Below, piece by piece: positions 7,701-37,300 of a DNA stretch of 60,000 nucleotides. A program made the position numbers and the translations under genes. Numbering within the stretch: position 1 is the stretch's first letter; the number at the start of each line of letters is the position of its first letter. Origin of the DNA: Bolinopsis microptera (Eukaryota; Ctenophora; Tentaculata; Lobata; Bolinopsidae); contig NC_087083.1 of assembly GCF_026151205.1 (NCBI RefSeq), positions 14,936,280-14,996,279 of the forward strand, given 5' to 3'. A model generated the notes under the pieces. The model had not been told where the DNA came from and did not search any database. It saw only the letters and a program-made list of their open reading frames with translations.

Positions 7701-10700
7701 ACAGAAACACAGCAGAACAAAGTAATGACATGTTATTCGTTGTTAGAGGTAAATTAGGTGTTAACCAGCCTAGCCTATGATGTGTCCGTGAAATAGGTTT
7801 ATACTGCAACTGTATAGGTTACTGTGAACGAGCACAGTAACCATGTACTAACAAGGTCCCCATACGTCCGCATGTAACGTGTGTTTGAATTATTCAAATA
7901 CCCTGAGTGTCGAACAATACTGTCAACCCCTCGTTACCACATTTGGCTGGATAACAAGTATGCCGTGGCCTGGTAACTGGGCCTGTTTAAGTGGTTTACG
8001 GTGTAATTTAGGGGTAACAGTAATGTGTAATTTAGGGGTAACACTTAACAGGGTCGGGACACACAGTGTGTTCTTCAGTGAAGCAATGGGAAAATGGCTA
8101 AAAGGTATTGTGTAGATTGCGGGAAGTGGCCGGTGGTGGTATAAGATGTAGGAGTTATAAGGTATAAGTTACCTATAAGGTACCACCTATAAGGTACCAC
8201 CTATAAGGTACCACCTATAAGGTACCACCTATAAGGTACTTATAAGGTATTTATACCTAGTAAACGGTACCTGCATGAGTCTTTTGTAGCCGAGACCCAG
8301 AATTCCCTGCCATAATGTAGGCGAAACAAAGAAGTTTGAGGAAGATGTTATCAGAGCGACATCGACAATGCCACTACCACCTGAGATAATGGGAGGTTAG
8401 TTAGAGGTAATTTAGAGGTGAGTTAGAGGTTAATTTTAGGTCCAAAGTTAGAGGTAAGTTAGAGGTAAGTTAGAGGTAAGTTAGAGGTAAGTTAGAGATA
8501 AGTTAGAGGTAAGTTAGAGGTAAGTTAGAAGTTAGTTAGAGGTAAGTTAGAGGTTAGTTAGAGGTAAGTTAGAGGTAAGTTAGAGGTAAGTTAGAGGTTA
8601 GTTAGAGGTAAGTTAGAGGTTAGTTAGAGGTAAGTTAGAGGTAAGTTAGAGGTAAGTTAGAGGTTAGTTAGAGGTAATTTAGAGATAAGTTAGAGGTAAT
8701 TTAGAGGTAAGTTATAGGTTAATTTTAGGTCCAAAGTTAGAGGTAAGTTAGAGGTAATTTAGAGATAAGTTAGAGGTAAGTTAGAGGTGAGTTAGAGGTT
8801 AGTTAGAGGTTAAAAGTAAGAGGTAAGTTAGAGGTAAGTTAGAGGTAAGTTAGAGGTAAGTTAGAGATAAGTTAGAGGTAAGTTAGAGATAAGTTAGAGG
8901 TAAGTTAGAGGTTAGTTAGAGGTAAGTTAGAGGTAAGTTAGAGGTTAGTTAGAGGTAAGTAAGAGGTAAGTTAGAGATAAGTTAGAGGTTAGTTAGAGGT
9001 AAGTTAGAGGTTAGTTAGAGGTAAGTAAGAGGTAAGTTAGAGGTAAGTTAGAGGTTAGTTAGAGGCAATTTAGAGATAAGTTAGAGGTAAGTTAGAGGTA
9101 AGTTAGAGGTGAGTTAGAGGTTAGTTAGAGGTTAAAAGTAAGATGTAAGTTAGAGGTAAGTTAGAGGTAAGTTAGAGGTAAGTTAGAGATAAGTTAGAGG
9201 TAAGTTAGAGGTTAGTTAGAGGTAAGTTAGAGGTTAGTTAGAGGTAAGTTAGAGGTAAGTTAGAGGTAAGTTAGAGTTTAGTTAGAGGTAATTTAGAGAT
9301 AAGTTAGAGGTAATTTAGAGGTAAGTTATAGGTTAATTTTAGGTAAGTTAGAGGTAAGTTAGAGGTAAGTTAGAGGTAAGTTAGAGGTAAGTTAGAGGTA
9401 AGTTAGAGGTAAGTTAGAGGTAAGTTAGAGGTAAGTTAGAGGTAAGTTAGAGGTAAGTTAGAGGTTAGTTAGAGGTAATTTAGAGATAAGTTAGAGGTAA
9501 TTTAGAGGTAATTTAGGGATAAGTTAGAGGTAAGTTAGAGGTAAGTTAGAGGTAAGTTAGAGATAAGTTAGAGGTAAGCTAGAGATAAGTTAGAGGTAAG
9601 TTAGAGGTAATTTAGAGGTAAGTTAGAGGTAATTTAGAGGTTTAAAGTTAGAGATAAGTTAGAGGTTAAGTTAGAGGTAATTTAGAGGTAAGTTAGAGAT
9701 AAGTTAGAGGTGAGTTAGAGGTAAGTTAGAGGTAAGTTAGAGATAAGTTAGAGTTATTAATTGGGATATAGTAAAGTTAATCGGACTAATCAGAAGAATA
9801 TAAGAATATATCGTTTTTAAGATAATGAATACTGCAAGTCGTAAACAGTACAATGTATTGCATATTGCATATTATATATATACCGCGATGAAGCTAAATT
9901 AGTTTAACGCTTATATACATGTATAAAAGCTGAAAGTAATAGTAATCGTTAGTTGATATCTAGATCCTTTCTAATTTGCTGTCACAATGTAACGTTGTGT
10001 CACAACACATACATTTATATTATGATGAATCATCAAATCGGGGTTTGCAGTAAATCGAGGTTTTTTGTTTACATTGCATTGTGTATGTTAAGCCCTATTT
10101 GGGGGAAGGAGATGGCTGCGGTAAATCGGGGTTTGCGGTAAATCGGGGTTTTACTATACAAATTGAAATACTCACAGGTTTCACAGAACATAAAGATATC
10201 ACTAGCGAAGTATCCCTGCCAAGTGCCATTAAAGTACTGAACTTTTATACTTTTATCAGGACTTCCTTTGAATGAAGTAGATCTGAAATATTGGAAAATA
10301 AGCTATTAAAATTATGAGAGCTGTCATGTGAATAATTTCAGTTTCAAGAGCCACCCATAAAACAATTGGAGATGATGCAGATGGGCGATGTTTTACTGTA
10401 TTTAGAAACTCGATATGTAAGCATCCATCTCGATAAGTAAATATTAATCGGCGCGGCGTCGTTGTGTACCCCTGAAACCTCCCACTTCCTCCTTAATTTC
10501 ACCTACAACTGGTTACTGGCGCCACTGGTTACTGGCGCCACTGTCAGCGCTATTAACATCATGATTATACATTGCATCTTAGTGTGGCAATAAATGCAAT
10601 CATTACAATAATCAGACGGCTGTACTTATTCATGGTTAAACTCATGCGATAAGAATTTCATTTGTCATGTTAGATCATTGATTTTCCGATTATCATGGGA

Positions 10701-13700
10701 TTCAAATTAGCACCACTTGTTAAATTTAGAGTTCTGTGTTACACATTTGCATTACCAGTATAATTAATATCAAAGTAAGATAATTATATCAGAATAATTT
10801 ACGGGTTATCTACGCATGTAGCTCCAAATCATTACGGAATAAGAATGGAATTAGGGAGGTCTGATTTAAGACACTCATTATTTATTCATTATTCATTATT
10901 CATTATACCTGTTCATTATTCATTAATACCACACTGCGAATAATAGAATTTCAATAATGTTAAACGGCTATAATGGCAGACGCATATATACAGATCTTTG
11001 ATATTGATCTTTAAATTTCACTAGCAGCATGGATATCAAGGATAATATATAAACCTTATTCAGATCTGACATTTAGGAATCATGATAATTTAAAAAGAAC
11101 CTGCCTGTTAAAGTAATAAGTCGCCTCTATTTAATTTGTTAGCTAAATTTTCACTCGCAGGTCATCTGTTCTCACAAAATCAAGCTAGGGGACGTCGAAA
11201 ATTGTATCAAATATCTTTATAAAGGAGCAAGGTAGGAAAACGTTCCGTATCTTGCAGCCATATTATTATATAATATATTCTATTCGAAACCAAAACTCAT
11301 ATTCGAAACTAATACATATGTAGTCAAAAAACGAACTTTTTCTATTTTCTATTAATCTGAGTCTACATGAGTTACTTGTTCACATTGGAGTTAAGTTTTA
11401 CTTTAGTTTTAAACATTCATAATATTCTACCTGTACTTACCATAAGTAACAGGTAATTAATACTACATATATATATGTAAAAAAGAATACCTATATTACT
11501 TACTTTATGTTACTGTATGTCACTGTATTACTTACACACCTCATCTAGTGGTACTCACAAAAGAAACAGATGTAAGCTGTACAGCTGTTAACCTGTTAAC
11601 CTCACATACACTGATATACAAATTAGTACGGTATATATTACATATATTATATTACTATATTATATAGTATTGTAGTATAGTATTTATTATGGTACTGTAT
11701 ATATTAGCGACAAGAGAAACGCCAATGTCGCGTCGGACGTGAGGACTCCTCAAACTACATTAAATATATTCCTTAGCTGGAACGTCCTCAATAAATGTAC
11801 TTAATAGTAGTTGTGAAAATAGTTTAATGGTATTGAATGTTGAATATACATCATACATGTTGGGGACTATTACACGTTATTTCGAGGTAACATGCAGTAA
11901 CGCGATAACTTCTCTCTGTTTCTCTCCTTGTTACCATAACAACACGAGATGTTGGACACTTAGAACAGCTGCTGACTGATTGTACCACGTGATTGTACCA
12001 TTATGCCTGATTGTTAAATTTAAGGCGCCCAAAACGGAGAATATATCGTTATATCGGTCGGATTTTAAAAAGACATCTCATGTGTCTTTTAAGTTGAATA
12101 ACTGAATTAGTCCCAACCCTATGGACAATTTTTCTTTTATGAAGTTTCTATTTTATAATGGTCCTTTCCTTACAATAACCACTGCACGGTACGTATAATT
12201 ACTCTCACATCGCCACCTTCATCTAACAAGAGTTCACTTGACGTACGCTCTTTTTAAGCTGGGAAGATCCTATGCTTCATTTACACAGGAATATCTAGGG
12301 ACTACGGGTGGAAGATGAATAATTGATATTCCAACAGCATCTTGTTCCCTGCATTGTGCTGATTCCGGGAAGCATTTTGTTTACGCTCTCATCATTCTGT
12401 AGGATGAGATATCGTTCATTTAAAATTGGGTAATTATAGGCCTGTCAAGGATTTCAGCCTAATTAAGAGCTGATCAATTGCAGCTAGTTGTGCCATATAA
12501 GGGATAACTGAGGTCACGTGACATTCAGTCCTATCACGTGACCGCTAATCCTATCACGTGACCTTGATTCGTAAAGCCTCGGGCACGTGATCACATTCGT
12601 AACGTGTCGTATGCCGACTAGGAGATTTTGTGACGTCACCAGAGCTGAAGCTACTTGATCAGACCTTATATGGAATAATATCGTGTATCGGGTGTAATTG
12701 GACCCAATTAGAGCAGCTGAGCGCTCAATTATAGCAGCATCTGGTACCACCTTCTGAAACCCAGCAGACAGCTGGCCCAGAGAATCGAAATTAGAAGGAT
12801 TTTTTATTGATGGAAATCGAAGCGGAAACCTTGTAACCCTATGTTTTCGATGACGCCGAACAAGATTAAACAGGTTATAATTGTCCTACTCTCGTGTAAA
12901 TTGCTCTAAAACGTGATTGAAATTGTAATGATGCTATCAATTGTAATACAGTTTTTACATTAAGCTGAGCGGCGTAACGGCTGGCATTCCTGGGCCGCAC
13001 TCATCCCAGATTGTCATTCCGCCGCAGCTTCAATTTATCTGGATATTACAGCCTGGGGTCCCCAGGTAACGACTGGAACCACTATATCTGCCTAATCTCA
13101 GTTATTGTCAATAACGAAGCCTGTGATCCGCACATCAGTCATTGAATGGGCTTGAATTGAACGTCGTGTTATTACTATAAAAAATATCATAGTATCGGGT
13201 AAATTTTTTCAAAATGCACTTGAATGTCATCAATTTGATTAAGTTATCATAAGTTGAATAGCTGGTGCATTTACAGTGCTACGTTTTCAATTATTCTACG
13301 AACACTTGGAATTAAAATCTATTTATATATATATTGCATTGTTTAATACTTATAATCAAGATTGCTAAGTTCAGTGTGTGGACGAAGTATAGCGATGGAA
13401 TCACTAACATATTTATGACTGTTTGATATTTCTTTGCTGCAGTCTGCATATCATCCAGAGAAAGCTAATTTTAAAGAAGTAGTCTCGAAATTTTCGGGAA
13501 TAAACTCAATATTGTGAAACATCATACAAAATATTATATAACGAGTGTTCTCTTTTAATAAATCATTTCATTAGTTTTTTGAACTTCCTCTGTTTTCCTG
13601 GATTTTGTTGCCTCTCCTCAGAGACAACAATGTGGTGTCCTGCTTTCATGTCTTTGTTAGCACACTTCAGCTTTGATTCTGTCATCAGTGCCACCGCTCT

Positions 13701-16700
13701 TTCGACTGCTTGCTGGTGGCAGGGATATTTCGTCACCAAAGGTGATTCTATGAACCTGTCGAATTGATCAGGATCAGAGGGATGCACCCTTACTACCGAT
13801 GGAATAGTGACTGCAGCCCACTTCAGCTCTTCTGAAATATAACTTGTTATCATAAACTTTCCTTTTTAAATTCAATACCATCCGTATTGTTTTCACTTTG
13901 ACCTTATAGCTATGTCAATAACTTTATTAATACAATAATATAATATTAATAGTTACGTCATAGTAAATACAATTTGAAATGAACTTACTGCACGCAGTTT
14001 TGTAACAGAGACCAAATAAATGGTACGGTTTGAAAGACTTAGTCTTTCTCACCGGATCTTTATCCTCGATGTCAGTGTTGTAAATGACAAGGTCAAGGTA
14101 CGATTTTGCATTTCTGTTAATCTCTGGCTTGCAAAATATCCGCGGTTTTCCATTCGGGCGTATTGTCCGGTTCATGCCCTTCTGCTCTAGTTCTATAAGC
14201 TGCCTGCAGAGAGCCACGCCTTTTTCCCGAACAGCTCTATCTGCGTCACCTTGAGGAGTATTTTCATTCACATTTATTTAAAGGAACAGAACCAAAAGCG
14301 GGGACAAAGGTGAACAATTTAAATAACTAAACTGTAACAAGAGCTTCGTGACAACAAATATCCACTAAAATAAAACATGTACTAATTTCTCACCGAGACT
14401 GCAAACAATAATTGCTTCAGGATGAGCGAAGTAACTATTGTTACAAACTTTCTTCAAAACTGCTGTTCGTTCTTTTGGGGAAAGTTGTATGTCATTATTG
14501 AGTGTGAGGCTTGTAAAAACATGATAAGCCCCATCCTCAATAAGAGGACGCAGTTTGATCTGAGCGTGCATCTGAAATTTGAATGCTTGAGTTATGAGTA
14601 TAATTATTACAGTATCACTTATCAGGAACAGAATATATGGCTAAATTTAGTTTCATTTCATAAAGTGACGATTTAAATATTTAGCAAAATTGATTAATAA
14701 TTAATATTCATCAAATTTCTGGTCTGGAAAAATGTGATGATTGGCACAAATGTACGTAAATGGGTATTGTAGCTACAGTCAATAGTTTGGGGGCATGATA
14801 ATTAATTCAAATTGCAAAAACTATATTATGCAATTTTTATTTTTATTCAAAATCTCAGATAAGACCTAGGCGAGGTGATACTCGAACTATTGAAGTACTT
14901 ACCCTATAGTACACCTGAACCACATAACGTGCCAGCGTGTCCACCTCCTCTCTCCTGACTACAGGATCAGATACGTAGTACCTTAGTATCCGCGATGCCA
15001 GGGTCAGCCACCGTGCGTGATTCATTGCTCCAAGTTTTGCGGAAGCAAGGTCATCAGGAACATATCCTGAAACATTATTTGTACTACCTGTTTTCCTTCT
15101 TTGGCTCCCAAAGAGACAATCCACTACAAAATCTGAGTTATGAACAGATATAGATGGTCTTACATGTAGTCTAGAGTTACTTAATATAAACATAGGTAAA
15201 ACATTTTTACTTTTAATTGGCATGTACCATCGAGACAGGCGAGGCAAAGTCGATAAAGCATTCTGTTGTCCTGGCTTAGCTGCTGAATAACGGTTGACGT
15301 TAACCTCGGAAAATCAGCACAGGAGATCGTATTAAACTTTGCAATTTTCCTTTTGTATACGTCATCACTTAACAGAACTTTACCCAGTCTGCCACCAAAC
15401 TGACCTTTTCCTGAAGTTGCATATTTAATTGAAAAGTATGCATTATGCCTGGCTATATAGAAAAGGTCGTAATAATTCATTCCATGCAAATTTGGACTAC
15501 AGAAAGTTTGTTTAAATTTAATTTACCTTCTTTCACGTTATCAAGCTCACAGAACAATCCACGAAGTGGTAACTCCACCGAGTGAAGTAAGCACACAGAC
15601 AGAAAGCAGGGCTTTCCGATCATTTCCTGTATGTGTCTTAAAGCACCCTCCTGTAAAGATTACAAATTAGGTATTGTTTTCGTTATATCATAAAAAAGTG
15701 ATCCTTAAACCGTTTGATCACAAAGTCGTTTTTTATTACATTAAATTCTTACATTGTATCCCGTAAGCGTGTTGGTACCGTCACTCCCTAGCACCTCTAT
15801 CTTCTTGTAGTTGATTCGCTTACTCTCCAAGTAATTGATAATTGTTGATGCGATACCTCTTCCTGAAGGTACCAACAAGAATTAATAACCATTATTATAT
15901 AATAACCATTTAACTTTATATTCAATAACGACATGATTAACTCAAAAAGTATTTTACTACTATACTATCAGAAACTTGTTTTGAGCTTTAAGTTTTATGT
16001 TTCAAGTTGAATTAAGTTCAAGCTATGTCGACGATAAGATGTTAAGATGTTAAGATGTTAAGATGTTAAGATGTTAAGATGTTAAGATATTAAGATGTTA
16101 AGATGTTAAGATGTTAAGATGTTACGATGTTAAGATGTCATAATTTTAAGATGTTAAGATGTTAAGATATTAAGATGTTAAGATGTTAAGATGTTACGAT
16201 GTTAAGATGTCATAATTTAAAGATGTTAAGATGTTAAGATGGTACGATAAGTTGTTTGACTTGAAACACAATGCACAATAAAAACCTGTCTTGTCATCTA
16301 TAGTGACGAATCCTAGAGAATGTGCACCAGGATATGCCAATATAGTGTATGTTTCTTCCCTGATCTTTTGGTTCTTTCCGTCGAGCCAAACCAAACTCTC
16401 GCTTTCTTTGCCGTCAAAATAGATAGCTATAAAAATTAAAACGTGTAAATCGGGTGATGATCTATATTTTTGTACAATATATCTTTCATTATTTGGATTG
16501 CTTCTTACTTCTTACCATTGAATTCGAGCTGTCCCAGACTAGAAATGAACTGTTCCCGGACGTTATTGGCAGCCGTCCTCATCTCAGCCTCTGTCAAGAG
16601 CCGATGGGTCCCCGTCAATGGCTGTTTCTCTGTTACAATGGAGTGGTGAATCACTCGAAAAACGTCTACCATGGCGGCACAGCTGATTCCACGCCGAAGC

Positions 16701-19700
16701 ATCACAGGGACCATGTTGTCGTACATCTGGTGCACGTCTAAATCCTTGTCATGCACGTTTGGTAACCAATCTTTGTCCTGTGAATTAAAATGTCAGGCTT
16801 GTAAACTTTGATCCTTTTTACGTGATTAATTACGAGACCAATTAAATATTGCCTCTAGAAGCACGTCTTCAAATATGCCATAGTTTTAAGCTTAGTGAGG
16901 CCGCACCTTAGTTATTACTCCCTCGTATGGGGTTTTACTGCCAACAAACACTTTTTGTGAAACAAAATATGGGTCTTAGAGCAGTACTACCTAGATTCGC
17001 CAATTTCTGGTACAAACAAACTTCTTCGCAGAGTCTATTCAACGTTAACATCTATAAAAGGTGAAAAAAAGCAGCAAAACGAGAGCATTCCTGAAGGATG
17101 GCCCAACTTGATGTTACATAATATAGCGGGATAAGGATATCAAAGCGCAACATTAACCGCAATGCTGATAACAACCTCGTCTTAATACCATAAGCACGCA
17201 CGGAAGCATTACTGAATCAATTTCACTGCATACCATCACAATTACACTGTCAACAATTCATATTATATTCACCAGCAACCCCGGCATGGGCTTATCCTAC
17301 TGATAACAGTCGTACTACACAATTTGTGTGCGTTTTGACTTTTGATAGCTAACAATTAATTAATATATATTTTGAGTAAAGATTGGCTAGCACTTTAGGC
17401 CAGCACCCAACAAACTAATAAAATACTTTATGATTAGTTATGATAATAATAAACATGCCGAAGAAGGAATAAAGTTATACTTGGCGAAACCTAAAAGACA
17501 AGCTGTTTCGTAAAGCAGCTTTATCATGTGGCTGTCAAGAAAAGCAAAACATTTAAGTTTGGAAGCATACCTGCGTACTAAATCGGCTGTTTGACATCTC
17601 TTCAAGCAAATATTTTAGATCGGGTGTTAGGAAATTTTCTGGATCAGAGGAGGATGTTGTCTTATCAGCAGATCTCGTAGTCATCCCACTACTACTAGAA
17701 AAATCGTTTAACCTGTCTCGGATATTCCTGAAAATAATAATTGCTAAATAATTCAGTTGATTTATGTATAAATATTATATAATACTAGAATGCCCGTGGT
17801 CACAGGGAGGAAGGTTACAGTATTCTTTGGTCAGTTTTTATAGCGTACATAGAGACATAACCTTTCGAATTATTACAATGATATATTATATATTTATATT
17901 AATGTACATTAGTTAGCCACAGAAATAATTGAGGCACACAAGTGATCTCAACTTTCGGTCATATTAACCTTATCAATAATGACATTGGTTATAATATAAT
18001 AGTATTGAAACTATTACAACTATTACGGACTGGAACATTATTAGTCGCATAACAATAGACAGATGATAATTTCTGATTATTCTGATTTCTGCAACACATG
18101 ATACTGTGCACACTGTTAGGATAAACGACGTTTCAAAGTAACAACTTCGTATTTATGCTGACAAAATTGGTAAATATGTGAGAAAACTGTCCCATAATAT
18201 TTATAAATCAACAAGAGAATGAAAAGCTAAAATATCTAAAATTCTTCAGTACTATATAGCTATGATAAAACTAGCTATCATTCTCTTTTTATTGCGTACA
18301 GTTTCAGGTTCTAGTAGTAGTAAGTTTTAGTGTTTTTACACATCTCGCTCACAATCATTAACCACTCACTATATTTTCACTCACATTGTGTATACACCAT
18401 CTCACATGTATTGTATCTTTTACCTTATCATCTGTTATCACTGTACATGTCATTACATCACACGATCACAATCACGTACTAGCTGTTCAGTTGATGTTTT
18501 AAGTTTATTGAATAGCAGATCGAGTAATTTGTGTATACATAGATTTTGATTCTAACTTTAATCTAGTATTTGAACAATTTGTTGTCGTTTAGCCTTTTTG
18601 ATTTATAACTTTTATGAGACAGTTTTCTCACATATTTATCAATTTTGTCAGCATAAATACGAAACAGCTTTTATTTAGTTAGATGAACTTACTGAATGGG
18701 GTCGACATCGTCAGGAGTTGAGGAACAGCTAGGCTGGTTGTAATCTGCTGCTAATCCAGTTATATTCCCGGAGTTCGAAGAGGATGGTGACTGTTCAGGA
18801 GATCTCACTCTTGTGGAAAGATTGGTCAACCTGTCCCGCATATTCCTGAAAAGAATGAATTCTAGATTATTTAGTTGATTTAAATATTATATATTATACA
18901 TCTTAATCTAGTTCCGGTGAACCTGCATCCACTCTGATTCTAACATAGACTCCCTTCCGACCAATTTACTTTTACTTATTATTCCTGACATCACTTTAAA
19001 GCTTTACTGAGTAAACATTACATCTATCAACGAACTAATCTTGTTTCGAGAATCGAGAGAGATATTATTTAAGAATTTTAGATATATCAGAGCATGTGTA
19101 TAATCTATCAGTCTTATCCGCTCCCAGTATCTTATCTTAATATAACTTACTGTAATGGATCAGGAACATGGGAATCAGGTACATGGTGATCGTCTGCAGC
19201 ACGATCTCTACCAAGAAGGAACTCCTTGTCCAAGAAGGAGTCAAAATTTTCAATCGTTTCCCTTTTCCGCATGTTCTTACGCTTTTTCAATTTGTCGTAG
19301 AGGCCCTTGATCTTCCTGAATTATAATTACATTAATATTGTCATTTCAAAATAAAATGAAAACGATTTTTCTTACCTTGTTGCCAGAACTAAAAGGGCTG
19401 TCATTGCTAGATGAATATCATGAGATCACTGACGGGATCATCGTCGACGTGGCTGGATCGGCAATATACTGCAGTCTCGTGTGAAATATTGCTCTGGCCA
19501 GCATGAAGTGCAGTCTTTGCTCAATTAAATGTAGAAAGTTTCTAAATTACATTAATATAAGAGAAACTAAGTGCCTAATATAAATATGCATACAGTACAA
19601 CTACAGATTGTTCATGAAACATTGGTCATTGGTTTGGTTTCAAACATCTGTAGATTAATTTATGAAAGATCGATCGGCTATATTTCTCTTATTTCCCCCA

Positions 19701-22403
19701 GCAGAAAATATATGTTTGAAACCGGACTGATGTATCGTGAACAACCTGTGCTGTAGGGTAAATACCTAAAAAACACTAGCACTTACTTGACAATATTGCA
19801 AGGCTGAAAGAAGTCCGTTTGCCTGTACATTTCGATGGTACTGTAATGACTTAATATCAAACTTGAAACCTCGGCCAGCATTAAATCGACATGAGTCGCA
19901 TGGTTTTCCTTGTGGCTCAAAAGAAAACGAAGGATGTCCTTGTTTGACGGAGGACTGTGACATGGAAGGCTGTCACACGTTCCATCAATAAAATCGGACA
20001 ACTTCATTGCAATATTGAGAAAACTATTTGAGAAATGATCACTATTCATATAGCGGTGTTACATTGATTTTAGTTACGTTGCAATTTTACTCGACTCTTA
20101 TCAGTTCACTTCTTATCAGCGCGATCGCAGTAAGTTTTACTGTGTGCAACAGTTACATAACTGTAACTGTATAATACACATAACATTAACTCTGTAATGC
20201 ACTTCAAACTGCAGTATAAAGAGTACGCACTTCGCACAAATGACAAGAAGGTAATCTAGTAATACGATTTTTGGTATTAATATCTTTAATATTAATAACA
20301 CGGCTTGTTCGATTCAAGTCCGTTCAATGTGGTCAATACCTGATGTGCGGATCACAGGCTTCGTTATTTACAATAGCTGAGATTAGGCAGATATAGCGGT
20401 TCCAGTCGTTACCTGGGGACCCCAGGCTGTAATATCCAGATAAATTGAAGCTGCGGCGGAATGACAATCTGGGATGAGTGCGGCCCAGGAATGCCAGCCG
20501 TTACGCCGCTCAGCTTAATGTAAAAACTGTATTACAATTGATAGCATCATTACAATTTCAATCACGTTTTAGAGTAATTTACACGAGAGTAGGACAATTA
20601 TAACCTGTTTAATCTTGTTCGGCGTCATCGAAAACATAGGGCTACAAGGTTTCCGCTTCGATTTCCATCAATAAAAAATCCTTCTAATTTCGATTCTCTG
20701 GGCCAGCTGTCTGCTGGGTTTCAGAAGGTGGTACCAGATGCTGCTATAATTGAGCGCTCAGCTGCTCTAATTGGGTCCAATTACACCCGATACACGATAT
20801 TATTCCATATAAGGTCTGATCAAGTAGCTTCAGCTCTGGTGACGTCACAAAATCTCCTAGTCGGCATACGACACGTTACGAATGTGATCACGTGCCCGAG
20901 GCTTTACGAATCAAGGTCACGTGATAGGATTAGCGGTCACGTGATAGGACTGAATGTCACGTGACCTCAGTTATCCCTTATATGGCACAACTAGCTGCAA
21001 TTGATCAGCTCTTAATTAGGCTGAAATCCTTGACAGGCCTATAATTACCCAATTTTAAATGAACGATATCTCATCCTACAGAATGATGAGAGCGTAAACA
21101 AAATGCTTCCCGGAATCAGCACAATGCAGGGAACAAGATGCTGTTGGAATATCAATTATTCATCTTCCACCCGTAGTCCCTAAGGAATATCACATCTGGC
21201 CAAGGTCGCTCTACACAGTGCAGGCACACAAACAACAATGGGCTATAATACTAACGACAATGCAGTGCACCTAGACCTAGTTATAGTATTACGTCTTGTG
21301 TATGTAGATCTGTCGATTTGTGGGTCGATCATGCATGATAATAAAAGGGAAAAAACATCGTGCAAATCGTGATAACTCAGGACGATATGAGAGCGAGAGC
21401 CTCCACTCGCTATAAAATTAAATATAGAATTCAATTGTCATTTCGGCTATGCTCTAACTAAACATCTCTTTCCAGTTCTGCTGTAAGCAAAAAATTTAAA
21501 GATTATGTAGATCAACAAAAATTGGCAAACATGATTGGACAGCTAATTGCTAATTAATTAATTAGCTAATTGCTTCCACGTGTCAAAACATTTATGTCAA
21601 CTCCTCCCCAGCATCCAATTTAATTGGAATTTTTAAATTAAACTGAAAATCTTAACAAATTCTTACTGTTCACTGCTGAAGTATTTATCAATCCCCACAT
21701 CAGCAGACCCCGCAATTGCAAAGTTTGAGCTGCCAGTGTCAACCACTACACTAAACTTCTGGGCAGGACTTCCTGAATTATAGGTAATTTAGAGGTAAGT
21801 TAGAGGTAATTTACCTCATTATCACATAAAAATTGATTTCTGAAAATTTTTGAACATGGTCATTTTAGCTAATATTTGGCGGAAAGACTTTTAAACCACA
21901 ATATCATAATCGAAAATTTGAGTATTTCAAACTAAGACGCGCAACCCCCTCATCAACTTAATAAAAATTAATTAATTAGTATAAGACCTAGGAATATGTC
22001 TATGAAGTATCCTTGTTCGGGTCTCCCGGTAACCTGCACATCTGTCTCTCTCTTCCACACCCTGTTGTTGTCAGGATCTATTGTGTAATTCAATGTTTAG
22101 TTCTAGAGAGTATTAACATAAATGTTTAAGATGACAATGGCGATGTGTGCCCATTATATTATGTTACAAAACTGAATATGAAATATGAGTTCATGCTTTC
22201 AATGCATTATTTCTACAATATACTTTTGTTTTTGGGGAACACAGAACTTCTAATTAAATAACGATATAATCACAAACCAATGAGACATATTATTATAGAA
22301 TGCAAGTGTAGTTACCTTGAATACTCCCTCGTAGAGGAAGTTTGATGGCTGACTCAATGTGAACAGTTAGTAGAATACAGAGGAGGGAGAGCGATACTGC
22401 CAT
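4770..22403 (-). CDS. BACE: BACE-like aspartyl protease, 5' seven exons (3' end outside window)
   Basis: A pepsin-fold aspartyl protease of the beta-secretase type; the family are secretory-pathway or membrane proteases. Exons on the minus strand: 22316-22403, 21988-22077, 21667-21772, 10176-10282, 8271-8380, 6277-6402, 4770-4892. All junction phases agree and sum to 750 nt (250 codons). Exon 1 starts at ATG 22403 with a hydrophobic signal peptide (MAVSLSLLCILLTVHIES). Exon 2 ends EQGYFIDIFLG, like the BACE strand before the catalytic loop. Exon 3 has the first catalytic motif VVVDTGSSNFAIAG. Exon 4 reads VQYFNGTWQGYFASD. Exon 5 has NFFVSPTLWQGILGLGY, exon 6 VFSIELCGRR and exon 7 KEWYYQIELTDLTVNG. 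The second catalytic Asp (DSGTT) must lie left of the window. Joining exon 6 to 7 omits the usual Gly-rich 'GGSxxxGGxD' stretch, so a small exon may be missed or lost. The long exon 3-4 intron contains the 8.9-kb transposon. BACE is the best match by motif; another membrane aspartyl protease is possible. Confidence 0.85.
4894..6276. other. intron between BACE-like exons 6 and 7
   Basis: AT-rich intron sequence. It holds a GTATGTACCTA-type tandem repeat at about 5295-5370 and 5865-5905 and a non-LTR retrotransposon fragment between the two. I looked here for the expected Gly-rich BACE segment and did not find it. Confidence 0.6.
5363..5827 (+). mobile_element. non-LTR retrotransposon (LINE) fragment, C-terminal end of reverse-transcriptase ORF
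   Basis: An open frame of 154 codons reads LTYGSEMWGTT..., RLESFHQCCLRGILGV, KRLRWFGHVSRMPEDRLPNY and GKRSRGRPRKSLNDV, ending at TAA 5827. This is the stereotyped C-terminal region of the ORF2 protein of RTE- or Jockey-like LINEs: the 'YGSETW' block, the 'RWxGHVxRM' block, then basic 'RGRPR'. The polymerase and endonuclease domains are absent, as expected of a 5'-truncated insertion. It lies inside a minus-strand intron of the BACE-like gene in the opposite orientation. Copies of GTATGTACCTA flank both sides. Confidence 0.85.
6403..7605. repeat. 33-bp minisatellite carrying a copy of the BACE-like exon 6 acceptor
   Basis: About 35 tandem copies of a unit built from GGGAGCAGGTTGAAATGG followed by TCACGTGATATTATA, with 33-, 35- and 37-bp length variants. 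The array touches the acceptor of BACE-like exon 6 (exon edge 6402). On the gene's sense strand the exon boundary reads TATTTCAG/CCTGATCC, and the repeat reads TTTCAACCTGCTCC or, in a few copies, TATTTCAGCCTGCTCC. The repeat therefore appears to be a multiplied splice-acceptor region. The 33-bp period keeps frames open, producing spurious KWSRDIIGSRL-type ORFs. Confidence 0.93.
7606..8155. other. intron sequence, no gene seen
   Basis: About 550 bp of BACE-like intron between two minisatellites. It contains two close copies of GTGTAATTTAGGGGTAACA near 8000-8045. A 78-codon plus-strand open frame here has no recognisable features and I treat it as chance. Confidence 0.5.
8160..8262. repeat. 14-bp tandem repeat next to BACE-like exon 5 donor
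   Basis: Repeats of CTATAAGGTACCAC end about 10 bp from the exon 5 donor (exon edge 8271). The donor on the sense strand is CAG/GTACCG, and the repeat contains the same GGTACC word, so the array may have grown from the donor region. Confidence 0.9.
8395..9757. repeat. 11-bp minisatellite (GTAAGTTAGAG)n, about 120 copies
   Basis: A 1.36-kb array of an 11-bp unit with variants GTTAGTTAGAG, GTAATTTAGAG and ATAAGTTAGAG. It starts 15 bp upstream (sense) of the acceptor of BACE-like exon 5 at 8380. On the plus strand the unit is a 5' splice consensus (AG/GTAAGT). On the sense strand of the BACE-like gene it gives CTAAC, a branch-point-like word, in every unit. The natural acceptor tract begins CTAACCTCCCATTATCTCAG, which suggests the unit grew from the branch-point region. 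A small piece of the same repeat is at about 21783-21812, just upstream of exon 3. Confidence 0.95.
10020..10155. repeat. short imperfect repeats of GTAAATCGGGGTTT
   Basis: Four imperfect copies of a TAAATCGGGGTTTGCG-like unit lie between 10035 and 10155, ending about 20 bp from the exon 4 donor (edge 10176). Two overlapping plus-strand ORFs here are products of the repeat. Confidence 0.6.
10290..12286. other. AT-rich intron, no gene seen
   Basis: Left part of the BACE-like exon 3-4 intron. It contains a direct repeat of GGTTACTGGCGCCACT near 10510-10542 and short ATTCATT runs near 10880-10925. I see no exon or transposon ends here. Confidence 0.5.
12287..12295. repeat. left 9-bp target-site duplication of the transposon
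   Basis: AGGAATATC directly abuts the first base of the left inverted repeat. The identical AGGAATATC directly abuts the last base of the right inverted repeat (21183-21191). Confidence 0.92.
12296..13138 (+). repeat. left terminal inverted repeat (843 bp)
   Basis: Near-identical reverse complement of 20340-21182. Around 12512-12592 it has three close copies of a TCCTATCACGTGACC-like word plus another CACGTGATC. These subterminal repeats are candidate transposase-binding sites. A 78-codon open frame occurs identically in both arms and is not considered a gene. Confidence 0.95.
13563..20049 (-). CDS. transposase-like protein, 809 residues, 13 exons, unclassified family
   Basis: Exons: 19787-20049, 19151-19315, 18693-18845, 17571-17727, 16516-16777, 16286-16426, 15753-15862, 15527-15650, 15228-15410, 14903-15066, 14394-14571, 13989-14249, 13563-13831. 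They sum to 2,430 nt (809 codons plus TGA), every phase matches and there is no internal stop. ATG at 20049 is the first in frame. Recognisable blocks in order: a basic segment (KKRKNMRKRETIENFD); AIYFDGKESESLVW, a likely first RNase-H-fold Asp; EVLGSDGTNTLTGYN, a likely second Asp; SVCLLHSVELPLRGLF; GAMNHARWLTLASRILRYYV; YPCHQQAVERAVALMTE, with a candidate acidic residue; then a basic tail (KQRKFKKLMK). I recognise this block order from uncharacterised repetitive proteins in invertebrate genomes. The catalytic assignments are inference. Exons 3 and 4 look like duplicates (NMRDRLTNLS, NIRDRLNDFS). Exon 12 has an alternative in-frame acceptor 9 bp downstream. Confidence 0.88.
16037..16245. repeat. 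8-bp tandem repeat (GATGTTAA)n in transposase intron
   Basis: About 25 imperfect copies of GATGTTAA in the intron between transposase exons 6 and 7. It ends about 40 bp from the exon 6 donor (edge 16286). Confidence 0.9.
16880..17110 (+). pseudogene. possible degraded LINE reverse-transcriptase remnant
   Basis: Frames read SYYSLVWGFTANKHF, then after a frameshift KQNMGLRAVLP. The spacing resembles the 'SxxxYgxxvWG ... LQxraxR' block near the C-terminus of Jockey/CR1-type ORF2. It contains stops and frame breaks. It lies in the intron between transposase exons 4 and 5, so it would be a nested insertion older than, or acquired by, this element. Confidence 0.35.
18147..18662. mobile_element. 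nested non-autonomous inverted-repeat element in transposase intron
   Basis: About 75-bp arms: CGTATTTATGCTGACAAAAT on the left and its inverse ATTTTGTCAGCATAAATACG on the right, extending inward through the words for TGTGAGAAAACTGT. Flanks AACAACTT and AACAGCTT form an imperfect 8-bp target duplication. No coding capacity is seen. It lies in the intron between transposase exons 3 and 4. Confidence 0.7.
20340..21182 (-). repeat. right terminal inverted repeat (843 bp)
   Basis: Inverse of 12296-13138, with single-base differences such as CCGCTATATC against CCACTATATC. The transposase start codon is 291 bp inside its inner edge, so this arm probably supplies the promoter. Confidence 0.95.
21183..21191. 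repeat. right 9-bp target-site duplication of the transposon
   Basis: AGGAATATC, identical to 12287-12295. Confidence 0.92.
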
Positions 22404-31300: not shown

Positions 31301-34300
31301 CGTGACATGACGTCATACCACGTGGCATGACGTCATACCACGTGACAATATTTCTGTCACCTGTTCCACGAATTAACCAATCAACACACCTTTGCAAACC
31401 ATAAGAGTTATCATAACTGAGCTGTAATATTTGACCCAACTACCTCTAAAACTACCTCTAAATCTTTATCACGTGTCAACGAATAGGTGTGACACGTGAC
31501 AGCAATAAACCAACAGCTACCTCTGAAATGGTAATTAGTTGCAAGCTACCCGTCTGTACTATATCTATTATCTAATATTAGTGACATATAAAAACACCCA
31601 TGATGTAATATACTGTATGTGATCTAATTTACATCTGATATTCGTTTTGAATTAGCTGAGGCTGTAAAAATACTGTCATAGCCCTATTTATCTAGCCCTA
31701 TACCTAGATAGAGTACTAGACCGGGGTAATATTGTATATTGTATAGATGTGGGATCCTGGAGCACAGAGAGGAGACGTACTTTGGGTAATGAATATTGCT
31801 TTGACTAGAAACAGGAACAAGTAGTTTGCTGGAGCACAGAGAGGAGACGTACTTTGGGTAATGAATATTGCTTTGACTAGAAACAGGAACAAGTAGTTTG
31901 CTGGAGCACAGAGAGGAGACGTACTTTGGGTAATGAATATTGCTTTGACTAGAAACAGGAACAAGTAGTTTGCTGGAGCACAGAGAGGAGACGTACTTTG
32001 GGTAATGAATATTGCTTTGACTAGAAACAGGAACAAGTAGTTTGCTGGAGCACAGAGAGGAGACGTACTTTGGGTAATGAATATTGCTTTGACTAGAAAC
32101 AGGAACAAGTAGTTTGCTGGAGCACAGAGAGGAGACGTACTTTGGGTAATGAATATTGCTTTGACTAGAAACAGGAACAAGTAGTTTGCTGGAGCACAGA
32201 GAGGAGACGTACTTTGGGTAATGAATATTGCTTTGACTAGAAACAGGAACAAGTAGTTTGCTGGAGCACAGAGAGGAGACGTACTTTGGGTAATGAATAT
32301 TGCTTTGACTAGAAACAGGAACAAGTAGTTTGCTGGAGCACAGAGAGGAGACGTACTTTGGGTAATGAATATTGCTTTGACTAGAAACAGGAACAAGTAG
32401 TTTGCTGGAGCACAGAGAGGAGACGTACTTTGAGTAATGAATATTGCTTTGACTAGAAACAGGAACAAGTAGTTTGCTGGAGCACAGAGAGGAGACGTAC
32501 TTTGGGTAATGAATATTGCTTTGACTAGAAACAGGAACAAGTAGTTTGCTGGAGCACAGAGAGGAGACGTACTTTGGGTAATGAATATTGGTTTGACTAG
32601 AAACAGGAACAAGTAGTTTGCTGGAGCACAGAGAGGAGACGTACTTTGGGTAATGAATATTGGTTTGACTAGAAACAGGAACAAGTAGTTTGCTGGAGCA
32701 CAGAGAGGAGACGTACTTTGGGTAATGAATATTGCTTTGACTAGAAACAGGAACAAGTAGTTTGCTGGAGCACAGAGAGTAGACGTACTTTGGGTAATGA
32801 ATGTTGCTTTGACTAGAAACAGAAACAAGTAGTTTGCTGGAGCACAGAGAGGAGACGTAATTTGGGTAATGAATATTGCTTTGACTAGAAACAGGAACAA
32901 GTAGTTTGCTGGAGCACAGAGAGGAGACGTACTTTGGGTAATGAATATTGCTTTGACTAGAAACAGTAACAAGTAGTTTGCTGGAGCACAGAGAGGAGAC
33001 ATACTTTGGGTAATGAATGTTGCTTTGACTAGAAACAGTAACAAGTAGTTTGCTGGAGCACAGAGAGGAGACGTACTTTGGGTAATAAATATTGCTTTGA
33101 CTAGAAACAGTAACAAGTAGTTTGCTGGAGCACAGAGAGGAGACATACTTTGAGTAATGAATATTGCTTTGACTAGAAACAGTAACAAGTAGTTTGCTGG
33201 AGCACAGAGAGGAGACGTACTTTGGGTAATGAATATTGGTTTGACTAGAAACAGTAACAAGTAGTTTGCTGGAGCACAGAGAGGAGACGTACTTTGGGTA
33301 ATGAATATTGCTTTGACTAGAAACAGGAACAAGTAGTTTGCTGGAGCACAGAGAGGAGACGTACTTTGGGTAATGAATATTGCTTTGACTAGAAACAGGA
33401 ACAAGTAGTTTGCTGGAGCACAGAGAGGAGACGTACTTCGGGTAATGAATATTGCTTTGACTAGAAACAGGAACAAGTAGTTTGCTGGAGCACAGAGAGT
33501 AGACGTACTTTGGGTAATGAATATTACTTTGACTAGAAACAGGAACAAGTAGTTTGCTGGAGCACAGAGAGGAGACGTACTTTGGGTAATGAATATTGCT
33601 TTGACTAGAAACAGGAACAAGTAGTTTGCTGGAGCACAGAGAGGAGACGTACTTTGGGTAATGAATATTGCTTTGACTAGAAACAGGAACAAGTAGTTTG
33701 CTAGTTTGCTGGAGCACAGAGAGGAGACGTACTTTGGGTAATGAATATTGCTTTGACTAGAAACAGGAACAAGTAGTTTGCTGGAGCACAGAGAGGAGAC
33801 GTACTTTGGGTAATGAATATTGCTTTGACTAGAAACAGGAACAAGTAGTTTGCTGGAGCACAGAGAGGAGACGTACTTTGGGTAATGAATATTGCTTTGA
33901 CTAGAAACAGGAACAAGTAGTTTGCTGGAGCACAGAGAGGAGACGTACTTTGGGTAATGAATATTGCTTTGACTAGAAACAGGAACAAGTAGTTTGCTGG
34001 AGCACAGAGAGGAGACGTACTTTGGGTAATGAATATTGGTTTGACTAGAAACAGGAACAAGTAGTTTGCTGGATCACAGAGAGGAGACGTACTTTGGGTA
34101 ATAAATATTGCTTTGACTAGAAACAGGAACAAGTAGTTTGCTGGAGCACAGAGAGGAGACGTACTTTGGGTAATAAATATTGCTTTGACTAGAAACAGGA
34201 ACAAGTAGTTTGCTGGAGCACAGAGAGGAGACGTACTTTGGGTAATGAATATTGCTTTGACTAGAAACAGGAACAAGTAGTTTGCTGGAGCACAGAGAGG

Positions 34301-37300
34301 AGACGTACTTTGAGTAATGAATATTGCTTTGACTAGAAACAGGAACAAGTAGTTTGCTGGAGCACAGAGAGGAGTCGTACTTTGGGTAATGAATATTACT
34401 TTGACTAGAAACAGGAACAAGTAGTTTGCTGGAGCACAGAGAGGAGACGTACTTTCGGTAATGAATATTGGTTTGACTAGAAACAGGAACAAGTAGTTTG
34501 CTGGAGCACAGAGAGGAGACGTAATTTGGGTAATGAATATTGCTTTGACTAGAAACAGGAACAAGTAGTTTGCTAGTTTACACATAAACAATAAATAGAT
34601 AAATAATAGACGTTGCTACTGGTGGGGAGGTGAGGCATATTTTTTACACGTGTAAGGGATTCTGCACTGGGTGTTGTTTGGTCAATAGTGGAAGCTGATT
34701 GGTTAATATCTGTCACGTGTCATATTGTATTGTAACAATTTATGTCGTCAAAGCAACATACCAACAGCGCAGATTACATGTTAGATGTTTGTGTGTAACA
34801 GGGACAAAAGAAAATCGCGATTATTTCGGCCAAAAATCACGACACCGCGATTTTTCGTTATTTTAATAACAAACGACATATAAAATTTGTCGCAAAGAAT
34901 GGGAAAAATCGCGATCCCGCACATGCCGCGATTTCCTTTTGTCCCTGGTGTGTAATACCTTGGACCTTGGTTTGTACCCAAACAGAGGTGACCAGTGGCA
35001 ATAGGAACATACCCACATCCAGAAAGTTTTATATTTCCTTCCAATTTTCTTTCCTAAAACTCTAAAATAGGTCAGGTCTTCTAACAATGTCCCCTTTAGC
35101 ACAAATTTCTCTCAAACCCAAAAATTTCCTTCCAGTCAGACTGCCCTTTTTCTGAATGTTGTACGAGAAAACATATTTAATTTGTTTGAATTACCCGGTG
35201 AGCGATTAACAGCGTTTAAAAAGCAACCCTTAGTCTCCCGAGTAACCTGAATTATAATAAAAAATGTGCCACTATTATTATAGACGGTATATTAGAGGAC
35301 TATTAGATAAGCTATTTTACAGGCTGGTTCAAAGTGTTGATAAATTACAGCAGATGGTCTAACTGTTGACCATTAAGCTACTATTATTATAACATGTTAT
35401 ATTAATCTGTATTATGCTGTATTAATATAATATGTTATATTACTCTGTATTATGCTGTATTACTATATGTTATATTACTCTGTATTAAGCTGTATTACTA
35501 TATGTTATATTACTCTGTATTATGCTGTATTACTATATGTTATATTACTCTGTATTATGCTGTATTAATATATGTTATATTACTCTGTATTATGCTGTAT
35601 TACTATATGTTATATTAATCTGTATTATGCTGTATTACTATATGTTATATTAATCTGTATTATGCTGTATTACTATATGTTATATTAATCTGTATTATGC
35701 TGTATTACTATATGTTATATTAATCTGTATTATGCTGTATTACTATATGTTATATTACTCTGTATTATGCTGTATTACTATATGTTATATTAATCTGTAT
35801 TATGCTGTATTACTATATGTTATATTACTCTGTATTATGCTGTATTACTATATGTTATATTAATCTGTATTATGCTGTATTACTATATGTTATATTAATC
35901 TGTATTATGCTGTATTAATATATGTTATATTAATCTGTATTATGCTATATTACTATATGTTATATTACTCTGTATTATGCTGTATTACTATATGTTATAT
36001 TAATCTGTATTATGCTGTATTACTATATGTTATATTAATCTGTATTATGCTGTATTAATATATGTTATATTAATCTGTATTATGCTGTATTAATATATGT
36101 TATATTACTCTGTATTATGCTGTATTACTATATGTTATATTAATCTGTATTATGCTGTATTACTATATGTTATATTACTCTGTATTATGCTGTATTACTA
36201 TATGTTATATTAATCTGTATTATGCTGTATTACTATATGTTATATTAATCTGTATTATGCTGTATTAATATATGTTATATTACTCTGTATTATGCTGTAT
36301 TAATATATGTTATATTACTCTGTATTATGCTGTATTACTATATGTTATATTAATCTGTATTATGCTGTATTACTATATGTTATATTAATCTGTATTATGC
36401 TGTATTACTATATGTTATATTAATCTGTATTATGCTGTATTAATATATGTTATATTAATCTGTATTATGCTGTATTACTATATGTTATATTACTCTGTAT
36501 TATGCTGTATTACTATATGTTATATTAATCTGTATTATGCTGTATTACTATATGTTATATTACTCTGTATTATGCTGTATTACTATATGTTATATTAATC
36601 TGTATTATGCTGTATTACTATATGTTATATTAATCTGTATTATGCTGTATTAATATATGTTATATTAATCTGTATTATGCTGTATTACTATATGTTATAT
36701 TACTCTGTATTATGCTGTATTACTATATGTTATATTAATCTGTATTATGCTGTATTACTATATGTTATATTAATCTGTATTATGCTGTATTAATATATGT
36801 TATATTAATCTGTATTATGCTGTATTAATATATGTTATATTACTCTGTATTATGCTGTATTACTATATGTTATATTACTCTGTATTATGCTGTATTACTA
36901 TATGTTATATTACTCTGTATAATGCTGTATTAATATATGTTATATTAATCTGTATTATGCTGTATTACTATATGTTATATTACTCTGTATTATGCTGTAT
37001 TACTATATGTTATATTAATCTGTATTATGCTGTATTAATATATGTTATATTACTCTGTATTATGCTGTATTACTATAATATGTTATACTACTCTGCTGTG
37101 AGGTGTACTAAATCTCTTGTTTCAGGCGCGCGTGCAAGTTTTGACAGGCATAAAGTCATTATTTTCGGAGTACAGTGCTGGAGTTTTTAAAAGTTGAGTT
37201 AGAGAATTCTATCATGTTCTAATTTAGGAAATATGTATTTAGTAAAGTACATGACACGTGGCACGTGACACAAGACAAGGTACCTGACAGAAATATGTGC

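Follow-up and report, generated by a model that had tools for sequence, protein, structure and literature searches.

A mobile element whose protein finds no match among standard protein-family models lies in a 60,000-nucleotide stretch of the Bolinopsis microptera genome (contig NC_087083.1, positions 14,936,280 to 14,996,279; hereafter the window). At positions 12296-21182 of the window, an 8,887-bp element is bounded by long inverted repeats and carries one long spliced gene, which raises the question of whether the element is whole and to which transposase superfamily, if any, its protein belongs. The evidence points with considerable confidence to a cut-and-paste DNA transposon that is complete and probably autonomous, and that represents a hAT-like clade lying outside current hAT profiles rather than a demonstrated hAT member.

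Element Ends, Target Sites, and Evidence of Movement

The two terminal inverted repeats (TIRs), each of 843 bp (Table 1), are complementary apart from five mismatches (0.6% divergence), situated solely at 12836, 12903, 13081, 13102, and 13109, and identity between the flanks drops off sharply outside the arms; the boundaries proposed in a preliminary description of this DNA proved exact to the base. The element is flanked by a 9-bp target-site duplication (TSD), AGGAATATC. When the 150 bases of the left flank were searched against the genome (264.65 Mb in 232 contigs), one other match was found, on the same contig (L086). This locus matches both window flanks at 94-97%, has a single AGGAATATC and no element, and is continuous through the site. 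Low arm divergence together with this empty paralogous site supports, at the level of sequence, the recent insertion that had been proposed. An empty site was likewise found for the sibling copy L021, whose joined flanks, with one copy of the 8-mer, match 15 repeat copies at 98-99% over bases 1-200; the other 25 of the 40 repeat copies scored, from 163 candidates, match at lower identity or partly. Six of these repeat copies were fetched, and each has a single, intact 8-mer and lacks any element end. Genome searches showed no near-identical empty paralog for L026, which matched at its own two flanks only, or for L032, for which seven distant matches at 70-77% were obtained besides the copy's own flanks.

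Exact matches to the first 32 bases of the element number 56 across the genome, 29 forward and 27 reverse, as against 0 for a reversed-pattern control, and the ends are therefore not a product of chance. Among these exact ends, 22 pairs are adjacent and convergent, and 12 ends stand alone; the latter, having no exact nearby partner, were left out of the TSD count, although for the end at C7:19384640 there is a partner that differs in its last bases. With both flanks read at the 22 pairs, exact 8-bp duplications were found at 17, exact 9-bp duplications at 4, and a duplication matching at 7 of 8 positions at 1. At the four 9-bp sites, the 8-bp register agrees at just 0-3 positions, so these are not 8-bp duplications extended by a lucky base. 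The first base is C in 13 of the 17 8-bp duplications. The 9-bp length that had been put forward is thus real for the window copy, whose empty site has one 9-mer, but it is the minority length in the family. To our knowledge, a mixture of 8- and 9-bp TSDs inside one family is unusual.

Deleted Siblings and the Candidate Autonomous Copy

A first search for copies scored the best 40 of 296 candidates. Twelve siblings (L021-L028 and L030-L033; 1.9-9.6 kb) were compared with the window copy end to end, the C3 element (L029, L034, L035) was read nearly throughout, except for about 0.5 kb, and the remaining copies were read at their ends. All 12 siblings are internally deleted, some with foreign inserts, and the segments that they have in common with the window copy are 96-100% identical, the minisatellite excepted. 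Because damaged siblings occur together with untouched target sites, the element has evidently moved. At seven deletion junctions inspected, 1-3 bp are shared in five and 2-3 extra bases are present in two, as would be expected from incomplete repair of an excision gap. The DNA of exons 6-9 (15228-16426), which encodes both conserved aspartates and the CxxH motif, without the glutamate, gave 23 matches with all 16 candidates scored; the whole-length match is at the window only, the C8 family copy has most of the segment, and the rest are fragments at 74-100%. This DNA search leaves the window copy as the one candidate for an autonomous element found in the assembly, although a divergent autonomous relative could be missed.

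In the sibling copy L025, a 4.05-kb insertion (L025:777-4830) has inverted-repeat ends of its own (GGACCTTTACTGATAGTTGAAATTCG...), and its 8-bp duplication, GATTAAAC, is exact; it is therefore taken as another, nested transposon. At C10:4171390-4226952 (L072, L073, L082, L083, L084), facing family ends stand 55.5 kb apart with an exact 8-bp duplication, CCCATCTG; the left part ends near element base 690 and the right part begins near 7903, the interval having been partly read, and this deletion derivative seems to carry about 54 kb of foreign DNA. Within the interval, an open reading frame lies at L082:3-737 on the minus strand. Its match to the family profile, at 37.9 bits, is to the N-terminal part, and it probably represents a second and divergent copy of this transposase family in the genome.

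Structure of the Transposase Gene

The gene is modeled as 13 exons on the minus strand, running from 20049 to 13563, with GT at all 12 donors, AG at all 12 acceptors, and 810 codons that include a single terminal stop, for a product of 809 residues. Its best relative, a hypothetical protein of Mnemiopsis leidyi (ACHWQZ_G015204, 752 residues; P0001), aligns with model residues 15-806 at 50% identity (408/808, with 73 gap positions). The aligned stretches take in 11 of the 12 exon junctions; the junction of exons 2 and 3 (residue 143) falls in a gap, and exon 3 is without a counterpart. Since the Mnemiopsis protein aligns across these 11 junctions, there is good evidence from sequence comparison that the exons are joined as first read, exon 3 excepted, and translation may start at residue 15, where the Mnemiopsis protein begins. 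With both ends, the duplication, and a single long, phase-consistent spliced gene in place, the earlier view of the element as complete was borne out.

Two variants of the model were rejected. A short first exon from 19404 is in frame as far as it was built but lacks the N-terminus common to exon 1 and the Mnemiopsis protein, and an extra exon at about 19421-19538 is in frame after exon 1 but, by eye, hits a stop. Exons 3 and 4 begin alike (NMRDRLTN.. and NIRDRLND..) and their flanking introns are similar by eye; the pair probably arose by exon duplication, the Mnemiopsis protein having one such stretch.

Table 1. Features of the element and its gene, in window coordinates.
Feature	Position	Strand	Remark
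Left TSD, AGGAATATC, 9 bp	12287..12295	.	Single copy in empty paralogous site
Left TIR, 843 bp, starts TAGGGACTACGGG	12296..13138	+	
Three tandem 20-bp units, CACGTG core	12514..12573	+	Within left TIR
Exon 13, stop codon	13563..13831	-	Predicted catalytic E764 at 13701-13703
Exon 12	13989..14249	-	
Exon 11	14394..14571	-	
Exon 10	14903..15066	-	Conserved RW (R538/W539), 15008-15013
Exon 9	15228..15410	-	
Exon 8	15527..15650	-	CxxH: C437 15591-15593, H440 15582-15584
Exon 7	15753..15862	-	Predicted catalytic D408 at 15780-15782
Minisatellite, 8-bp period, unit TAAGATGT, ~26 copies	16035..16241	.	Intron 6
Exon 6	16286..16426	-	Predicted catalytic D338 at 16413-16415
Exon 5	16516..16777	-	
Exon 4	17571..17727	-	Similar to exon 3
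Exon 3	18693..18845	-	Exon 2/3 junction outside P0001 alignment
Exon 2	19151..19315	-	
Exon 1	19787..20049	-	ATG at 20049; in-frame alternative start at residue 15
Right TIR, 843 bp	20340..21182	-	
Right TSD, AGGAATATC	21183..21191	.	

A fourth CACGTG lies in the TIR, 289 bp from the element end. The 20-bp repeats with CACGTG, found some 220-295 bp into each TIR, are candidate binding sites for the transposase or a host factor. The intron 6 minisatellite seems longer in the sibling copy L023. In intron 3 (18146-18663), 70-bp inverted repeats (93%) stand 378 bp apart and are possibly a nested miniature inverted-repeat transposable element. Outside the element, a long repeat array on the minus strand at 31687-34615, with stop-to-stop frames of up to 785 codons, is probably a minisatellite rather than a gene.

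Relatives of the Transposase and Its Predicted Fold

A protein search with the last 542 residues as query, in which 7,997 candidates were scored, identified 104 relatives at E <= 0.001, led by the Mnemiopsis protein at 63% identity over the query. Source-given names are few among them, and these read hypothetical, uncharacterized, or unnamed, with the exception of P0029, a "DNA-binding protein YbaB." Proteins of Hydra (P0080), Amphibalanus (P0048), and Psylliodes (P0090) and unnamed environmental clusters are included, at 24-38% identity. Those that were aligned have most of the conserved blocks in common, P0048 being a fragment from the second aspartate on. A Cys-rich stretch at the N-terminus of the family consensus is not found in the Mnemiopsis or the window protein. 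In a midpoint-rooted tree of 31 sequences, these two proteins group together (100/100) on a branch of 2.35 changes per column from the rest, and because of this long branch the ctenophore pair is regarded as a divergent lineage in itself. A second homolog search, with alignment A1, returned 5 proteins of 7,983 scored, common words having probably filled its candidate list. In viral contigs, 36 stretches matched the search pattern and 0 were relatives, and BFVD held nothing at E <= 0.001, the best match being a bracovirus protein (1.8e-3).

Profile searches gave no route to a known family. Pfam includes models for hAT dimerization, the BED zinc finger, KDZ, and MULE, and the window protein had no match to any Pfam family, even with E as high as 10. 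With 55 family members, 10 Pfam families were matched at E up to 0.05, none of them a transposase or hAT-related model, and none of the at least 25 families listed at E up to 1 leads to a known family; the same holds for an NCBIfam search and for a single-sequence search of PDB. A profile search of PDB gave five weak, unrelated matches, the best being RasGAP (E 0.079). The preliminary description had placed the protein in an uncharacterized invertebrate group and had proposed a Pfam search of the 809-residue product, and both the lack of a Pfam transposase match and the names of the relatives agree with that placement.

Structure prediction, proposed at the same time as a search for an RNase-H fold with a DDE triad, covered two family members. 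For both predicted models, the closest solved structure is Hermes, a hAT transposase, and the predicted fold consists of an RNase-H DDE core with an all-helical insertion domain as in Hermes. In the model of the Mnemiopsis protein, D282 lies in the first strand, D352 just past the fourth, and C381/H384 just past the fifth, followed by RW (481/482) in the helical insertion and E708 in a late helix. The equivalents in the window protein are D338, D408, C437/H440, R538/W539, and E764, of which D338, D408, and E764 are the predicted catalytic residues. The conserved blocks FDGK, SDGTN, VCLLH..ELPLR, ARWLTLASRILR, and QAVER correspond to these D-D-CxxH-RW-E positions, whose order is conserved in 53-55 of the 55 members. 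hAT transposases, including Hermes, have the order D-D-CxxH-RW-E(R).

Relationship to Known Superfamilies

The element resembles hAT in the Hermes-like core and helical insertion of both models and in the 8-bp TSDs of 17 of 22 end pairs, a likeness of the family majority only, the window copy itself having 9 bp. The D-D-CxxH-RW-E order and the TAGGG end are further likenesses, and the hAT end consensus fits TAGGG. Against hAT membership stands the lack of any match to a hAT dimerization or BED zinc-finger profile, and the 9-bp duplications at 4 of 22 pairs are also unlike hAT. TIRs of 843 bp compare with 10-25 bp, and a length of 8.9 kb with 2.5-5 kb, in the range given for hAT in passages of one source (PMC3942097), differences that are descriptive rather than diagnostic. 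Because no hAT profile is matched and both TIR and element size lie outside this range, the element is not filed here as a hAT member. The earlier statement that the protein could not be matched to hAT or other named groups stands as far as Pfam models are concerned, but hAT stays in play through the Hermes fold, the 8-bp mode, and the D-D-CxxH-RW-ER order.

We tentatively suggest, at somewhat less than an even chance, that the clade is of superfamily rank and unnamed, a sister to hAT by its predicted fold that is invisible to current profiles and has ctenophore, cnidarian, and arthropod relatives. To a hAT-like clade this reading adds very long TIRs and a relaxed stagger of 8 or 9 bp in the window member, and if it is true, the window copy would be the first of the superfamily to have its ends defined and to come with empty sites and deletion derivatives. 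The family may be new: outside Repbase, Dfam, and the literature on hAT subgroups, the titles and abstract openings consulted contain no description of the element, which is weak evidence. With a similar chance, again somewhat below even, the element belongs to a divergent hAT lineage already catalogued, such as one of the Hydra-derived hAT subgroups of Repbase, in which case only the ctenophore family would be new. The closeness of the Hermes fold, the 8-bp majority, the TAGGG end, and the Hydra relative P0080, which matches the C-terminal 542 residues significantly, as do Amphibalanus P0048 and Psylliodes P0090, all agree with such a lineage, and hAT groups with TSDs of 5, 6, and 7 bp, each with its own length, are on record in passages of a further source (PMC12730594). 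However, with E up to 0.05 allowed, none of the 55 members matches a hAT-related Pfam model, and TIR and element length exceed the hAT range. The Mnemiopsis protein, alike over nearly its whole length, differs by the gap at the exon 2/3 stretch, where one copy of the repeated exon is thus absent.

Membership of the P element/THAP9 group or of Zisupton (KDZ) is improbable. P elements have 8-bp TSDs and internally deleted derivatives, both of which recall the present family. Zisupton also has 8-bp TSDs, according to the same source (PMC12730594). Neither group, however, is matched by profile, no Pfam transposase model being found, and among solved structures both models come closest to Hermes; P-element and KDZ structures are not among the fold matches listed, which for P elements excludes nothing. 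Still less likely is a Mutator-like element (MULE), which the 843-bp TIRs and the 9-bp TSD of the window copy would fit but the family mode of 8 bp (9 bp at 4 of 22 pairs), the lack of a MULE profile match, and the different nearest fold do not. A domesticated host gene with chance or segmental inverted repeats on either side, as its length, many exons, and one whole-core-segment match in the genome by DNA search might suggest, is refuted as an account of the unit, with a negligible probability left to it, by TSDs that are exact in all but one of the 22 end pairs, empty sites, and many siblings with the same ends.

A Possible Mechanism of Transposition

For the hAT-like transposon favored here, a route of movement can be proposed from the ends, duplications, empty sites, deletion derivatives, and open frame read in the sequence and from the predicted fold. 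The transposase would bind the element ends, where the 20-bp repeats with CACGTG in the TIRs may be its contact sites, and excise the element at its TAGGG...CCCTA ends by hAT-type chemistry, leaving hairpins on the flanking DNA; the hairpin step and the order of cleavage are borrowed by analogy from Hermes. The excised element would then be joined to target strands cut 8 bp, and sometimes 9 bp, apart. Donor double-strand breaks would sometimes be incompletely repaired. The resulting copies would have lost internal segments but kept both long TIRs, and they may be moved in trans by the transposase. We infer the catalysis, the repair route, and the movement in trans, as well as any current activity of the window copy.

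Implications

In ctenophore chromatin loops, DNA-transposon insertions at loop promoters are described in passages of one study (PMC12221973), while the passages of the Beroe genome paper that were available name no such family (PMC11184263). Through the present element, a group of "uncharacterized" invertebrate proteins is linked to a predicted fold and to a mobile element whose ends are defined, and because of that link these proteins can be looked at afresh as transposases and used to build a profile. The mixture of 8- and 9-bp duplications raises the question of how strictly hAT-type transpososomes fix the stagger. Ctenophores are an early-branching animal lineage, for which we know of no transposon tool. 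One full-core copy, many near-identical deletion derivatives, and empty sites together make up a testable two-component system in a ctenophore.
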